A DNA stretch of 10,473 bases from Flectobacillus sp. (GTDB lineage: Bacteria > Bacteroidota > Bacteroidia > Cytophagales > Spirosomataceae), in assembly GCA_029865665.1 (NCBI GenBank), contig JARXAV010000278.1, positions 1 through 10,473 of the forward strand. Reading direction: 5' to 3'. The translations under genes and the position numbers were made by a program. Under the pieces are notes generated by a model. That model saw only the letters and a program-made list of their open reading frames with translations. It was not told the DNA's origin and made no database searches. Positions 149-6,783 of the stretch are shown one piece after another. Numbering within the stretch: position 1 is the stretch's first letter; every line of letters begins with the position of its first letter.

Positions 149-1720
149 TTATAAACTCGGTTCTATCATAATCACCTCTTCTTTGTCTATAATCACTTGA
201 CCTTCTAATAAATCCCTTGTTTTACGAACGTATTTTTTAGGTGTTACAATCACAGGACAAAGCGTATCCGTTCTTCTTTTAGAATGATAAGCAGCCAAAG
301 CCGCCGCTTTTTCAATCACTGGAATAGGATATTTCTTACCCGCTTGTCGGCGTATAATCACGTGTGAACCTGATACGTCTCGGGCATGTAGCCATAAATC
401 TTCTTTTCGGGCATAGCGTTGAGTAAGCAAATCATTATTCTTCGCATTTTTACCGATTAAGATTTCCCAGCCCTGATAGACGACGTACTTAAATAAATCC
501 TGCACGGTTAGCACTTCTTTTTGAGAAGGTTCAAGCAAATTTGCTTTTAGATACTTACGCAACTCTTTCAGGGTTGCCACTTTCTCGATTGCTTCAATAT
601 GCCCAGATAATTCGGCAAGCAGTTCTTCTTTCACCGAAATATTTTCCATTAACTTCTGAATTTCTATTCGTTCGTTTTTAGATTTTCGATAATAATTTTC
701 TGCATTTTTCTGAGGTGTATAATCCGATTTAAGACGTATTTTGATAGGCCTATCTCGATAAAAATCATACAGTTCTATCACCTCCGTACGTTCGGGAATC
801 GCATGTAAATTAGCCATGATGATATTGGCAATTTCGTCATGTTTTACATCATCTTCTAAGCCCGATAATTGCTGATAACACTTATCAATATAGGTTTGTG
901 TGCGCTGCTGTTGCTTTTGTAAAGTTTTAACGACGGTGGCGGCCTCTTTATCAAAAACATTGATTTTCATCGAAGCATAATAAAGGGCATTACTTGCTTC
1001 TATAGGGTTTTCCATTTCCTGAACAACCTCCTCCCCTGTTTCGATGAGCGATAAAACGGGTTGAAAATTTACGGTCTTGATAAAGTATCTCGGCGAGTCT
1101 AATTGACGAATCACATCCGAGATACGTTGCCATTTCTGAGCCAAGTCTTCATTTGCTTGTTCCTGAGATTTTAAGTATTTGGCAATCTCTTTACCAAATG
1201 TTGGAAACAAGGCATACATATCACCATTCGATGCTTCAAAGGCTTCAAAATGCTGGTCTAAGTCACGATCTAAGGTATCTAAATCAAGATTATTATCAGC
1301 TACTAATTTGTTGTGAAATAAATCCAACACTTCATTTCCTTGAAATAGAATAATATTTGAGCGATTACCATACATTTTAAAGAGTAAAACGTAATCGTTT
1401 TCAAAATACAAAGCAAATGCTCGTTCATTGACAAACTGACGTACCGACAAGACTGGTAGGTCGATTAATTCTTTAAATAAATCAACAGAATTACGTCCCG
1501 CACGTCTGAAATCATTGGGGAAATTAAGGCACGCAAAGTCTGGATGCAGCACCGCTTTGATATAAAATTCACGAGGTTGTTTCCATTGTTTGCCTTCTGA
1601 ACAAAAGCCTAACACCAACTCATCTTTCTCTTGCGAAAAACATTCTGCCAAATATAAGCCCGTAACTTGTTGGGAAATTTGCTGGGAAAGGTGACGCAGA
1701 AAATAATAATTCGTTTGCAT
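149..1720 (-). CDS. rqcH: RqcH / NFACT-family ribosome quality control protein
   Basis: This 523-residue protein is a bacterial relative of eukaryotic Rqc2/NEMF, often annotated as a fibronectin-binding or DUF814 protein. In Bacillus, RqcH binds 50S subunits blocked by peptidyl-tRNA and recruits tRNA-Ala to add C-terminal alanine tails that mark the chain for degradation. The order of parts fits: an NFACT-N domain at about 1-210, a long charged coiled-coil region at about 255-400, and an NFACT-R domain at about 410-505 with the hallmark LWLHARDVSGSHVIIR (442-457). The segment NERAFALYF (98-106) appears to align with the region holding the functional Asp-Arg pair of Bacillus RqcH, here Glu99-Arg100. 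The protein is slightly shorter than Firmicute homologues (about 570). It is cytosolic, with no signal peptide. The ATG at 1720 opens directly into the family N terminus. It is transcribed away from the csp genes. Confidence 0.85.
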   Translation of the reverse strand: MQTNYYFLRHLSQQISQQVTGLYLAECFSQEKDELVLGFCSEGKQWKQPREFYIKAVLHPDFACLNFPNDFRRAGRNSVDLFKELIDLPVLSVRQFVNERAFALYFENDYVLLFKMYGNRSNIILFQGNEVLDLFHNKLVADNNLDLDTLDRDLDQHFEAFEASNGDMYALFPTFGKEIAKYLKSQEQANEDLAQKWQRISDVIRQLDSPRYFIKTVNFQPVLSLIETGEEVVQEMENPIEASNALYYASMKINVFDKEAATVVKTLQKQQQRTQTYIDKCYQQLSGLEDDVKHDEIANIIMANLHAIPERTEVIELYDFYRDRPIKIRLKSDYTPQKNAENYYRKSKNERIEIQKLMENISVKEELLAELSGHIEAIEKVATLKELRKYLKANLLEPSQKEVLTVQDLFKYVVYQGWEILIGKNAKNNDLLTQRYARKEDLWLHARDVSGSHVIIRRQAGKKYPIPVIEKAAALAAYHSKRRTDTLCPVIVTPKKYVRKTRDLLEGQVIIDKEEVIMIEPSL

Positions 1721-2276: not shown

Positions 2277-2471
2277 ATGCAAACAGGTAAAGTAAAATTC
2301 TTCAACGAAAGTAAAGGATTTGGTTTCATCGTTGACGATGCAACATCACAAGAAATTTTTGTTCACGTTACAGGTTTAGGTGGTATCACAATTCGTGAAA
2401 ACGACCTTGTTTCGTTCGAGACTATTGACGGAAAGAAAGGCTTAAATGCCGTGAAAGTGCAGAAATTATAA
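2277..2471 (+). CDS. cold-shock domain protein, first tandem copy
   Basis: This 64-residue single cold-shock domain (CspA family) folds as a five-strand OB barrel that binds single-stranded RNA or DNA. Family members act as RNA chaperones that melt secondary structure or as antiterminators. RNP1 is KGFGFI (13-18) and RNP2 is IFVHVT (27-32). The residue at position 11 is Glu, not the Trp seen in E. coli CspA. The protein spans the whole domain with no extra segments. It is 75% identical (48/64) to the copy 255 bases downstream; residues 1-21 are identical and the differences cluster at 22-25 and 35-38. It is followed by its own terminator at 2555-2590. Its ATG follows a T-rich leader with no Shine-Dalgarno sequence, as usual in the phylum. 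Whether it is cold-induced cannot be read from the sequence. Confidence 0.93.
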   Translation: MQTGKVKFFNESKGFGFIVDDATSQEIFVHVTGLGGITIRENDLVSFETIDGKKGLNAVKVQKL

Positions 2472-2725: not shown

Positions 2726-2920
2726 ATGCAAACTGGTAAAGTTAAATTTTTCAACGAATCTAAAGGCTTTGGATTTATCGTTGATGACGAGTCAAACGAA
2801 GAAATCTTCGTACACGTTACAGGATTAATCTCATCTGTGATTCGTGAAAACGACAACGTTTCTTTCGAAGTAACTGAAGGAAAACGTGGTTTGAACGCTG
2901 TTAACGTAAGAAAAATCTAG
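2726..2920 (+). CDS. cold-shock domain protein, second tandem copy
   Basis: This is a second 64-residue CspA-family protein with the same RNP1 (KGFGFI, 13-18) and RNP2 (IFVHVT, 27-32). It is the product of a tandem duplication with the gene upstream: same length, 16 substitutions and no gaps. The changes make the 22-25 loop more acidic (Glu22, Glu25) and replace the Gly-Gly-Ile at 35-37 with Ile-Ser-Ser. These residues flank the RNA-binding face and could shift substrate preference. The leader just before the ATG is almost pure T with scattered A, like that of the first copy. The terminator at 2555-2590 implies a separate promoter, but no good TAnnTTTG match was found; CAATTTTG at 2642-2649 is one base off. 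The gene ends with its own terminator at 3034-3059. Confidence 0.93.
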   Translation: MQTGKVKFFNESKGFGFIVDDESNEEIFVHVTGLISSVIRENDNVSFEVTEGKRGLNAVNVRKI

Positions 2921-3033
2921 TTATGTGAATTTGAGAATTCACAATTGGATTTATAAAATTTGAAATTCAGAATTTATCTTTCTATATATAGGATTCTTAT
3001 TTACAAGATCAATCTTATTGAACGTTCTTGAGA

Positions 3034-3059
3034 CCCTTAGCCTGCGGGCTAAGGGTTTT
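3034..3059 (+). terminator. intrinsic terminator after second csp
   Basis: CCCTTAGCC (3034-3042) pairs perfectly with GGCTAAGGG (3047-3055) around a TGCG loop and is followed by TTTTG. The 9-bp GC-rich stem and tetraloop make it a strong terminator, insulating the RNA-repair operon from read-through out of the csp genes. Confidence 0.8.
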
Positions 3060-3103
3060 GTCGTTTTATAGCCACAAGTATTTACTATTTTATTTATTCT
3101 GAT

Positions 3104-3111
3104 TACCTTTG
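3104..3111 (+). promoter_or_regulatory. candidate promoter of RNA-repair operon (-7 element)
   Basis: TACCTTTG matches the TAnnTTTG consensus and is identical in sequence to the candidate in front of rqcH. It lies after the csp terminator and 116 bases before the ligase start, implying a leader of about 110 nt. No TTG lies at the -33 position, so the promoter may be weak or need an activator. Confidence 0.4.
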
Positions 3112-3227: not shown

Positions 3228-3923
3228 ATGGCACTTTCTCAAAAGTACAACCGTACTTATCATTACCCTTTTTCACTTGGAGCAAGTTCGGATGATCGTA
3301 TTCATCTTAACTACTGGGAAGACATACAGCAAATCACGCAAATTATACACACTGAGAAATTAGATGGGGAAAACAATTGCCTCTCTAAATACGGAGTATT
3401 TGCACGCTCTCATGCCAGCCCAACTGTTTCTCCATGGACTCAATCGCTTCGACAACGTTGGGAGTTAATCAAACATGACTTAGGAGATTTAGAAATCTTC
3501 GGGGAAAACTTATATGCTATTCATTCTATTGAATATCAAAATATTGAAGATACATTTTTCATTTTTGCCATTCGCTATCTTGATTGTTGGCTAAGTTGGG
3601 ATGAAGTACAATGCTATGCAACGCTATTAGATTTTCCGACTGTTCCTGTAATAAAACAAGCATTAGTGAAAGAGTACACTGCTATTTCACTCGAAAAGGA
3701 AGTAATATCACTCTCGCAAACCTCTAGTGTATTCGGTTCTATAGAACATAGCACTGGAACACCTTGCTCAAAAGAAGGTATTGTTACCCGAAATAGTCAA
3801 GAATTTTTGACATCTAACTTTAAACAAAATGTGTTCAAATTTGTCCGTAAAGGACACGTGACAACTAATGAACATTGGACTAAAAACTGGAAAAAAGCTC
3901 ATGTGGCAATTCACGGAAAATAA
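3228..3923 (+). CDS. ATP-dependent RNA ligase, Rnl2-like nucleotidyltransferase
   Basis: This 231-residue protein is of the covalent nucleotidyltransferase superfamily. It is expected to form a lysyl-AMP with ATP, pass AMP to a 5'-phosphate RNA end and seal it to a 3'-OH. All the expected motifs are present in order: motif I KLDGEN with nucleophile Lys44 (44-49), the Arg-Ser step of motif Ia at 60-61, motif III EIFGENLYAIHSI (89-101), IIIa FFIFAIR (110-116), motif IV EGIVTR (183-188) and motif V FKFVRKGHV (203-211, Lys204 and Lys208). It is little more than the catalytic domain; the C-terminal domain of phage T4 Rnl2 (334 residues) is absent. It overlaps the HD-Pnk gene, which would supply the ends it needs. 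It is presumably cytosolic. RNA rather than DNA as substrate is inferred from motif similarity and context. Confidence 0.85.
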   Translation: MALSQKYNRTYHYPFSLGASSDDRIHLNYWEDIQQITQIIHTEKLDGENNCLSKYGVFARSHASPTVSPWTQSLRQRWELIKHDLGDLEIFGENLYAIHSIEYQNIEDTFFIFAIRYLDCWLSWDEVQCYATLLDFPTVPVIKQALVKEYTAISLEKEVISLSQTSSVFGSIEHSTGTPCSKEGIVTRNSQEFLTSNFKQNVFKFVRKGHVTTNEHWTKNWKKAHVAIHGK

Positions 3924-5007
3924 ACAATGGGAATACCTAAAGCAAACGTTCGACTGGGTTCACGATATGCACGGTGTTCCCCAAGATCCCATATTCCATG
4001 CTGAAGGCGATGTCGCAATCCATACTCAAATGGTATTAAACAGCCTTTTGGAACTAAGAGAATATCAACAACTTGACCCTCAACAACAGGAGATACTTTG
4101 GACTGCAGCCTTGATGCACGATATTGAGAAACGAACGACCACCATTATCGAAGCAGACGGCCGAATTACATCGGCTGGACATGCAAAAAAAGGAGAAAAG
4201 ACTGTTCGAGAATTACTCTACTGTAATTACCCGACTCCTTTTGAGATACGAGAACAAATAGCCAAATTAGTGAGGTATCATGGATTACCTTTATGGATTT
4301 TTGAAAAAGAAAATCCAGAACAAGCTCTAATTAAGGCAAGTCTTGAAGTAAATATGAAAATGCTTACGATGCTTGCCCGAGCAGATGTTCTGGGAAGACA
4401 ATGCAATGATAAACAGGAGTTACTCTATAAAATTGATTTATTTGAGGCCTTTTGTCAAGAATTAACTTGCTGGGAACATCCTAAGTTCTTTGCTTCTAAT
4501 TTTTGTAGGTTTTCTTATTTTCAACAATCTGATTATTATACAGATACTCTGCTTTTCGATGATACTCAAACAACGGTAATTTTGATGGCTGGTATCGCAG
4601 GATCAGGGAAAGATACTTTTATACAAAAGTACTACCCTAATATGAACGTAATTAGTCTTGATGCTATTCGAACGGAATTACAAATTAGTCCAACAGATAA
4701 AAAAGGAAATGGACAAGTGGTTCAGTATGCCAAAAAGCTTGCCAAAGAACTACTTCATAAAAAAAATCCCTTTATCTGGAATGCCACTAATATTACACAA
4801 TCAATGCGGATGCAACTAATTCAACTTTTTAGCACGTATAAAGCGTCCATAAAAATTGTGTATTTGGAAGTTCCTTACCGAAGTTTGTTACAGCAAAATA
4901 AAAACAGACAAGCAGTAGTGCCTACTGATGTCATTCACCGTATGATTTCTAAATTAGAAATTCCGTCACAATGGGAAGCTCACGAAGTCGAATATTACGT
5001 TGTTTAG
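3901..5007 (+). CDS. HD-Pnk bifunctional end-healing enzyme (HD phosphoesterase + 5'-OH polynucleotide kinase)
   Basis: This 368-residue fusion matches the HD-Pnk family characterised in Runella slithyformis, which removes 2',3'-cyclic, 2'- and 3'-phosphates with a metal-dependent HD domain and phosphorylates 5'-OH ends with a P-loop kinase. HD-site residues are all visible: His33, His73-Asp74, Lys77, His94, His127, Asp162 and Arg166. The kinase half starts near 222: Walker A GIAGSGKDT (231-239), Asp254 and Arg257 in SLDAIR matching the substrate-site Asp/Arg of T4 Pnkp, and a lid region with Asn335-Arg336 before VVPTDVIHRM (339-348). I chose the ATG at 3901, overlapping the ligase by 23 bases. 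An in-frame ATG at 3868 would add 11 residues (MNIGLKTGKKL) with no domain value. The overlap suggests translational coupling, with both enzymes acting on the same RNA breaks. Confidence 0.9.
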   Translation: MWQFTENKQWEYLKQTFDWVHDMHGVPQDPIFHAEGDVAIHTQMVLNSLLELREYQQLDPQQQEILWTAALMHDIEKRTTTIIEADGRITSAGHAKKGEKTVRELLYCNYPTPFEIREQIAKLVRYHGLPLWIFEKENPEQALIKASLEVNMKMLTMLARADVLGRQCNDKQELLYKIDLFEAFCQELTCWEHPKFFASNFCRFSYFQQSDYYTDTLLFDDTQTTVILMAGIAGSGKDTFIQKYYPNMNVISLDAIRTELQISPTDKKGNGQVVQYAKKLAKELLHKKNPFIWNATNITQSMRMQLIQLFSTYKASIKIVYLEVPYRSLLQQNKNRQAVVPTDVIHRMISKLEIPSQWEAHEVEYYVV

Positions 5008-5070: not shown

Positions 5071-6783
5071 TTATTCAAACCATTTCAAGACTTCGTCTTT
5101 TGAAGGAATAGTTAAATCTAATTTTAGTTTTTTACGCATACCACCCAAGTCGTTGAACACTTTGTTTGGATTTGCTTCTTTCAAGGCTGCGATGGTCATA
5201 AAGCCCATTTTTTGCAATACAGGAATCCATGCTGTTGGAACACCTAAGGCTTCGTATTCTTCGTTAGTAGCCATTTCTGCTTTCTTCTCTGGACGCATCT
5301 GAGGGAAGAATAACACTTCTTGAATCGTCGTCTGATTGGTCATTAACATCGTCAAACGGTCGATACCAATACCAATACCTGCTGTTGGAGGCATACCATA
5401 TTCTAACGAACGTAAGAAATCCTCATCCATTGCCATTGCTTCATCATCGCCACGTTCTGCCAATTTCAATTGTTCTTCAAAACGTTCACGTTGATCAATA
5501 GGGTCATTCAACTCGGTGTAAGCATTGGCGATTTCCTTTCCGTTTACAAATAGTTCAAAACGTTCTACTAAACCTGCTTTGCTACGGTGTTTCTTTGTCA
5601 ACGGAGACATTTCTACTGGATAATCTGTAATGAATGTTGGCTGAATTAAGTTTGCTTCTACTTTTTCACCAAACAATTCGTCAATCAATTTACCAGCACC
5701 CATGGTTTCATCCACTTCGATACCGAACGATTTGCAATGCTCACGCAAAGTTGCCTCGTCCATTCCTTCTACATTGATTCCCGTATATTTTTCGATAGCT
5801 CCAGCAATTGTCAAACGTTCGTAAGGGCCTGCGAATTCGATTTCGTTTTCTCCAACTTTAATATTCGACTGTCCGTTTGTTGCCAATGCTACACCTTCAA
5901 AAATACGTTCTGTGGTGTCCATCATCCAATTGTAGTCTTTATAAGCAACATACAATTCCACCGATGTAAACTCAGGATTGTGGGTTCTATCCATTCCTTC
6001 GTTACGGAACATTTTACCAAATTCATATACCCCGTCAAAACCACCAACAATCAGGCGTTTCAAGTATAATTCATTGGCAATACGCATATACAAAGGAATA
6101 TCTAAGCTATTGTGATGCGTTTTGAACGGACGTGCCGATGCTCCACCGTGGATGGGTTGCAAAATAGGCGTTTCCACTTCTAACCAACCTTTTGAATCGA
6201 AGAACGAACGCATGGTCGTAATTACACGAGAACGTTTCAAGAAAATATCCTTGATTTGTGGGTTTACGATTAAATCCACATAACGCTGACGGTAACGAAT
6301 TTCAGGATCAGTTAAGCCATCATAAACGTTTCCATCATCATCACGTTTTACCACTGGCAAAGGACGTAATGATTTATTTAAAATCTTAAATTCAGTAACA
6401 TGAATCGACACTTCACCTGTTTGGGTTGTAAAAACGTAACCGTTTACGCCCACGATGTCGCCAATATCTAATAATTTCTTAAATACGGTATTATAAAGTG
6501 TTTTGTCTTCGCCAGGGCAAAGGTCATCACGACGAAAATACAATTGGATACGTCCTGTAGCGTCTTGCAATTCAGCAAAAGAAGCACTTCCCATGATACG
6601 GAAGCCCATCAGACGACCTGCAATGGATACGTTCTTATAGTCAATCTTATTATTTTCGTAGTTCTGTTGAATGTCGGCTGCCGTCACGTTTACTTCAAAC
6701 GTTGGAGCTGGATATGGGTCGATACCCAATTTCATCAAATCTTCTCGCTTCTGGCGACGTAGTTGTTCTTGTTCTGAAAGCAT
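5071..6783 (-). CDS. lysS: lysyl-tRNA synthetase, class II
   Basis: This 570-residue enzyme attaches lysine to tRNA-Lys using ATP. An N-terminal OB-fold for anticodon binding covers about 50-140 (starting [14 protein letters not shown]). The class II catalytic core follows: [15 protein letters not shown] (213-227), RIANELYLK (234-242), motif 2 around [18 protein letters not shown] (255-272) and motif 3 [12 protein letters not shown] (469-480). The core ends near 500, about where E. coli LysRS ends (505). Here a further 65 or so residues (506-570) form a predicted helical, possibly helix-hairpin-helix module, as in other Bacteroidota LysRS. The ATG at 6783 opens into a charged N-terminal helix typical of the family. 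A well-spaced promoter lies at 6896-6928. It appears to be a single-gene unit, and no T-box or lysine riboswitch was recognised upstream. Confidence 0.97.

Follow-up and report, generated by a model that had tools for sequence, protein, structure and literature searches.

A horizontally mobile ligase/HD-Pnk gene pair, probably an RNA break-repair operon, that co-occurs with Tpt1 and RtcB

The window, by which we mean the whole 10,473-nt stretch of DNA analysed here, carries a gene for a small RNA ligase followed by one for HD-Pnk, with two cold-shock protein genes on one side and lysS on the other. The features of this region are listed below by coordinates and strand, with the evidence for each in brackets.

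2277..2471, +, cold-shock protein (csp) 1, in the flank outside the operon (PF00313)
2726..2920, +, csp 2, upstream border of the insertion (PF00313)
3029..3060, +, terminator-like hairpin between csp 2 and the ligase (14-pair stem, T-rich tail)
3104..3111, +, possible but weak Bacteroidota-type -7 box, TAnnTTTG, 5' of the ligase start (motif scan)
3228..3923, +, ATP-dependent RNA ligase, 231 aa, nearly all one nucleotidyltransferase domain (PF09414 RNA_ligase, E 9.4e-28)
3357..3374, +, ligase motif I, KLDGEN, with the predicted AMP-accepting Lys44 (homologue alignment)
3901..5007, +, HD-Pnk, 368 aa from the conserved start (PF01966, PF13671, homologue alignment)
3901..3923, +, 23-base overlap of ligase and HD-Pnk (ORF coordinates, aligned start)
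4015..4296, +, N-terminal HD phosphoesterase domain (PF01966, E 4.7e-7, residues 50-143 of the 379-aa reading)
4576..4965, +, C-terminal P-loop polynucleotide kinase domain (PF13671, E 1.2e-22, residues 237-366 of the 379-aa reading)
4591..4614, +, P-loop GIAGSGKD (Gly236 and Lys237 in 80/80 homologues)
5071..6783, -, lysS, downstream border of the insertion (PF00152)

The ligase contains KLDGEN, GEN, EGIV and KFVRK, which we take to be nucleotidyltransferase motifs I, III, IV and V. Lys44, Asp46 and Gly47 of motif I were the same in 77 of the 78 aligned homologues, the remaining one having a gap; the Gly of column 92 was present in just 53/78. The AlphaFold model (pLDDT 93.4, 34-sequence alignment) has a ligase fold, with RNA ligases ranking first among its structural matches. 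No meaningful match was obtained when the PDB was searched by sequence with the ligase.

The longest ORF of HD-Pnk runs from 3868 to 5007 (379 aa), and the homologue alignment favours a start at 3901 (MW..), which makes the overlap with the ligase 23 bases. A ligase with complete motifs overlapping HD-Pnk to this extent had been described in an earlier note on this DNA, with which the ORFs, the Pfam matches and the alignment agree. Like the two P-loop residues, His33, His73, Asp74, His94, His127 and Asp162 were found in 80/80 homologues, and His41 in 79/80. For both proteins, conservation of the predicted catalytic residues is far beyond chance. HD-Pnk has the layout of its family, an HD domain and then a P-loop kinase within about 370-400 aa, with the predicted catalytic residues intact. 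In its AlphaFold model (pLDDT 94.5, 25-sequence alignment), the best fold match of the kinase part is the Pnkp-like polynucleotide kinase of Clostridium thermocellum, and the fold of the HD domain resembles that of a tRNA-processing enzyme. The HD-Pnk of Flectobacillus sp. isolate NLJ.8 (a MAG) is a 98% match to that of the window. In a PADLOC scan the ligase had no match, and HD-Pnk matched PtuA (E 3.3e-4) and Csm2 (0.026) weakly.

The motif TAnnTTTG is the -7 promoter motif of Bacteroidota type. It has 16 matches in the 10,473-nt window against 14.3 expected, so the box upstream of the ligase is not significant on its own. Similarly, two terminator-like sites were found in the scanned stretch against 1.8 in shuffled sequence. 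Promoter and terminator motifs around the operon are thus not above chance expectation.

The two genes belong together well beyond the window. From the 185 homologous loci found in the genome collection, 80 were kept for analysis; the ligase adjoins HD-Pnk in 79 of these, and the remaining locus ends at a contig edge. This agrees with the statement of the earlier note that HD-Pnk homologues are often found beside a putative ligase. In a separate survey of 59 relatives, true HD-Pnk (at least 255 bits) was present in nine, with the ligase upstream in 9/9.

The pair occupies what is an empty site in related genomes. It sits between csp 2 and lysS both in the window and in the nearest genome, G001 (a MAG, 88% complete). 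The five relatives examined (G646, Flectobacillus sp. BAB-3569; G647, Cellulophaga sp. BC115SP by its title; G002; G028; G006) all have csp-csp-lysS contiguous without the pair. In the two longest matches, similarity to these empty sites breaks off at about 3002-3006 of the window; it starts again at 5071. At another place in their genomes, three of these relatives (G646, G647 and G028) do have the pair, in a version that is 61-65% identical. The distribution is patchy: the pair was found in 5/37 genomes of the family of G001, and HD-Pnk in 44/241 genomes of the order. A phylum-wide survey, with at most five candidates scored in the genomes listed, found HD-Pnk in 3/392 genomes, too few for a co-occurrence test. 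The ligase/HD-Pnk pair is horizontally mobile, which is newly seen here.

The two csp genes directly upstream might suggest a cold-adaptation operon; the earlier note, which says nothing of these genes in its entry, had named cold among the stresses to try. We reject this candidate because of the empty csp-csp-lysS sites: the csp pair stays beside lysS without the operon in 5/5 relatives, and the cold-shock neighbours are therefore accidental. A terminator-like hairpin also separates csp 2 from the ligase, and we regard this reading as extremely improbable. An NFACT/RqcH-like gene of the window (149-1720, -) had no match in the 12-13 kb around csp-lysS of the five relatives, so the neighbourhood differs there too. 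Downstream of this rqcH-like gene lies an Acido-Lenti-1 RNA (RF01687, 18-62, -, 45.7 bits), the one sRNA that Rfam detects in the window, far from the operon. The window has no tRNA genes.

The pair has also crossed into Enterobacterales, a Klebsiella carrier among them. Of 5426 complete E. coli genomes, 981 (18%) carry it, always on the chromosome, and it lies between emrB and luxS in the two carriers that were opened. In one of them, CFT073 (L200, 5995-6692), the ligase is annotated as frameshifted; the adjacent HD-Pnk is unflagged. The emrB-luxS site is empty in E. coli K-12 MG1655, where the two genes are 63 bases apart, which makes K-12 a convenient test host for a pair so common in its species.

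Among 90 viral loci fetched, HD-Pnk was matched in 15, the match covering only about 100 residues in L118 and L119; ten of the 15 also had a ligase, not always adjacent. Two lie beside arrays of 14 and 12 tRNA genes; a lone tRNA gene accompanies one of the others, and the fetched stretches of the remaining 12 contain none. In the phage contigs L126 (10001-13132) and L122 (10001-12383) the ligase is near HD-Pnk and tRNA arrays are close by, with three small ORFs between the two genes in L126 and one in L122. Phage copies near tRNA arrays fit tRNA repair as counter-defence.

Two other RNA-repair genes recur near the pair. Tpt1, identified by PF01885 or the NCBIfam RNA 2'-phosphotransferase model, is near it in 6/80 loci spanning four genera, against about 0.25 expected: directly beside it in two Runella loci (same strand) and two Spirosoma loci (divergent), and no more than about 10 kb away in two others. 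RtcB lies within 10 kb in 4/80 loci, against about 0.5 expected (both expectations assume one Tpt1 and two RtcB copies per 5.5 Mb genome). rtcB-prfH pairs were found within 10 kb in three of the 80 loci (L046, L037 and L052), the RtcB scoring under the cut-off of the PrfH-linked RtcB model, and one Mucilaginibacter has the gene order rtcB-prfH-ligase-HD-Pnk on a single strand. Separately, Tpt1 and RtcB are about 2-3 kb apart in G446 (C10), G459 (C14) and G519 (C383), possibly a linkage of these two genes that is independent of HD-Pnk.

The earlier note had proposed a survey of the neighbours of homologous operons for ribonuclease toxins. We ran it on the 68 non-enterobacterial loci (12 of the 80 were left out), with up to two ORFs of at least 70 aa per side, called by a simple script, using Pfam and, at E 1e-10, PADLOC as databases. 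It covered 128/128 upstream and 131/135 downstream ORFs, four very long proteins being left out. No recurrent toxin or defence family was found among the 25 commonest families listed per scan, and no PADLOC family in more than 3/131 downstream or 1/128 upstream neighbours. The endoribonuclease YbeY appeared in 2/128 upstream, and AAA_21 and AAA_15 in 2/131 downstream each. These counts do not support physical linkage to toxin genes or to defence systems that have a name. The patchy, mobile distribution would suit an anti-phage or toxin-linked module that stands alone and has a nuclease partner of its own; single neighbours match BrxHI, AriA, AbiLi or PtuA models, and AAA_21 is described as a putative AbiEii toxin. 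Such a module is nevertheless improbable, given the rarity of any defence family beside the pair and the phage contigs that carry it too, which are a better fit with counter-defence.

The association with Tpt1 extends to whole genomes. In 241 genomes of the order, those unlisted as matching being taken as without the gene, Tpt1/KptA was present in 37/44 HD-Pnk genomes and 43/197 others (OR 18.9, p 1e-14); hand-counted by genus, the figures were 22/27 and 21/77 (p 2e-6). RtcB was present in 41/44 and 85/197 (OR 18), and is itself co-distributed with Tpt1 (75/80 vs 51/161). Two unrelated controls gave a weak association for KatG (35/44 vs 112/197, OR 2.95, p 0.006) and none that was significant for urease, strong hits only (8/44 vs 21/197, OR 1.9, p 0.20). 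Since all three of RtcB, Tpt1 and HD-Pnk are co-distributed, lineage or lifestyle may account for some of the signal.

The link between HD-Pnk and Tpt1 holds among RtcB-positive genomes, where Tpt1 was found in 34/41 with and 41/85 without HD-Pnk (OR 5.2, p 2e-4), and among RtcB-negative ones (3/3 vs 2/112). Family and genus strata were confined to the 126 RtcB-positive genomes, family labels being incomplete for the negatives. Stratified by family (OR 6.2, p 0.011) or by size (permutation p 0.0007), the genomes of this set still show the link; within genera it is not significant (OR 4.6, p 0.22, four informative genera). It was repeated in the enterobacterial family of the Klebsiella carrier, with Tpt1 in 8/12 HD-Pnk genomes and 5/97 others. 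Removal of fragmentary hits changed this to 7/11 and 3/98, and with the negatives, which include genomes of 0.5 to 2 Mb, trimmed so that 50 genomes were left, the OR was still 13. Fragmentary hits were otherwise scored as present (HD-Pnk in G484, G528 and G777; Tpt1 in G528, G741, G789 and G798; RtcB in G001).

Of the 80 named carriers, 50 were compared in this respect, and Tpt1 was found in 32 of them, G646 and G647 included. G001 has no Tpt1 match and a fragmentary RtcB match only. In 22 hand-picked genomes of the 37 with both genes, Tpt1 and HD-Pnk are on separate contigs in 18, although separate draft contigs may still adjoin; in the other four they share a contig, with 75 kb to 2 Mb between them. 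Tight linkage can thus account for only a small part of the association.

Tpt1 is widespread among bacteria, in many of which no pathway making its substrate is known, and bacterial Tpt1 has been called a longstanding conundrum (PMC6333775, in part). The ligase/HD-Pnk pair, co-occurring with Tpt1 in two phyla, is a concrete partner candidate. In a fungal- or plant-like route the HD domain would open the cyclic phosphate to a 2'-phosphate, the ligase would seal over it, and Tpt1 would strip it with NAD. The co-distribution, with its survival across RtcB classes and family strata, its repetition in Enterobacterales and the adjacency in Runella and Spirosoma, favours such a route. Against it, 43 of the 80 Tpt1 genomes of the order have no HD-Pnk, and 7/44 HD-Pnk genomes, the nearest relative of the window among them, have no Tpt1. 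In addition, the E. coli control genome (strain unspecified) has Tpt1, while the operon site of K-12 MG1655 is empty; Tpt1 also tracks RtcB, so it may serve other repair routes; RtcB is associated with HD-Pnk just as strongly; the link is not significant within genera; and the HD-Pnk of Runella reportedly removes the 2'-phosphate itself. On balance we hold the route as a tentative possibility. If it were true, the operon would provide bacterial Tpt1 with the substrate whose source has been missing. The broader proposal, that the pair is the sought upstream partner of bacterial Tpt1 and heals, seals and strips toxin-cut RNA in parallel to fungal tRNA splicing, having spread horizontally across phyla and phages, is similarly speculative. 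No HD-Pnk/Tpt1 link was found in the literature searched, in which subscription journals were thinly covered, and we claim no priority.

Taken as a whole, the locus is probably a horizontally moving two-gene operon for RNA break repair, serving accessory repair of ribotoxin-cut RNA. The catalysis, RNA substrate and trigger that we infer are these. The HD domain would clear 2',3'-cyclic or 3'/2'-phosphate ends, the kinase domain would phosphorylate the 5'-OH end, and the small ligase, once charged with AMP, would seal the break. Likely targets would be tRNA or rRNA cut by metal-independent ribotoxins, whether these come from rivals, from defences set off by phage or from toxin-antitoxin systems. 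The operon would act alongside Tpt1/KptA and RtcB as one member of an accessory repertoire for RNA repair, and would not be a self-contained defence system. RNA repair is supported by the domains and motifs, the RNA-ligase and Pnkp-like folds, the 79/80 linkage and the empty sites. It is also supported by the co-occurrence with Tpt1 and RtcB, the enterobacterial replicate, the rtcB-prfH neighbours and the phage copies by tRNA arrays. Several observations count against it: the lack of Tpt1 and the fragmentary RtcB in G001, the non-significant Tpt1 link within genera, the correlation with the unrelated KatG, and the 13/15 viral HD-Pnk loci without a tRNA array.

Further evidence against RNA repair comes from Deinococcus. 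In excerpts of PMC1997131, the kinase of the homologous operon is active on DNA and the ligase adenylates itself, but sealing was not observed and phosphatase activity not proven; a role in DNA repair was considered. The inference of the earlier note that the pair carries out all three repair steps stands in part: components for 3'-end clearing, 5'-phosphorylation and sealing are all predicted and travel together; the Deinococcus ligase homologue gave no sealing (PMC1997131, excerpts). Could HD-Pnk and the ligase instead act on DNA, mending nicks with 3'-phosphate and 5'-OH ends that oxidative or radiation damage has left? Gamma-irradiation upregulates the Deinococcus ligase, and DNA is a substrate of the operon kinase (parts of PMC1997131 and PMC11833690); KatG correlates with HD-Pnk. 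DNA break repair is nonetheless unlikely, as the ligase is in the RNA_ligase family with RNA ligases as its best-ranked structural matches, the co-occurring and neighbouring genes Tpt1, RtcB and PrfH act on RNA or ribosomes, and two phage copies lie by tRNA arrays.

The gene pair itself is of known type, represented by the HD-Pnk of Runella and the DRB0100-0098 operon of Deinococcus; new here are its mobility, its spread in E. coli and its co-distribution with Tpt1 and RtcB. The HD-Pnk of Runella slithyformis is said, by Munir and Shuman, to be an end-healing enzyme often encoded in the same operon as a putative ligase. The HD-Pnk of the window is like it in domains, order and size and is not a new family; compared with it, the window, which is Flectobacillus-like, adds evidence for cassette mobility and for the co-distribution with Tpt1 and RtcB. 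The DRB0100 ligase of Deinococcus radiodurans is a clear homologue of the window ligase (profile probability 100, E 1.6e-61), as is its HD-Pnk of that of the window (probability 99.9, E 2.3e-33). The ligase precedes HD-Pnk in DRB0100-DRB0099-DRB0098 as in the window, but a TIGR02452 gene (PARG, DRB0099) lies between the two (PMC11833690, in part), whereas the genes of the window overlap without an insert. The same source, as far as excerpted, notes the PARG gene as a member of the ligase/HD-Pnk operon and describes bacterial PARG as stripping ADP-ribose from RNA or DNA phosphate ends made by Tpt1-like enzymes. PARG within the Deinococcus operon is an independent hint of a Tpt1-type connection.

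The RNA ligases of T4 (Rnl2), Naegleria and the Trypanosoma editing system are 13-16% identical to the window ligase, whose 231 aa hold little beyond the nucleotidyltransferase domain; the chain of T4 Rnl2 has 319 aa and that of Naegleria 335-340 aa. Pnkp1-Rnl-Hen1, which repairs ribotoxin-cut RNA, likewise has a separate kinase/phosphatase and ligase (PMC4411300, in part), but with Pnkp architecture where the window protein has an HD phosphoesterase. Accordingly, HD-Pnk scored 52.8 bits against TIGR04075, the model of full-length bacterial Pnkp with a cut-off of 750, and in the kinase part only. No Hen1-type gene was found among the eight scanned proteins of the window. The RtcB2-PrfH ribosome repair operon is, like the pair, a sporadic accessory RNA repair operon, in which RtcB, unlike ligase/HD-Pnk, ligates a 2',3'-cyclic phosphate end straight to a 5'-OH end and requires no healing; rtcB-prfH was reported to protect E. 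coli against colicin E3 (PMC9223846, in part). KptA plus 2H enzymes were also proposed for phage RNA repair (a portion of PMC9503650). Finally, the pair may be compared with the Trl1 and Tpt1 proteins of fungal tRNA splicing. By analogy, a ligase, a kinase and a 3'-end phosphoesterase would be expected in the window pair too, and a Tpt1 gene is present in most sampled carrier genomes, though not in G001. The fungal route uses a cyclic phosphodiesterase, in whose stead the window pair has the HD domain.
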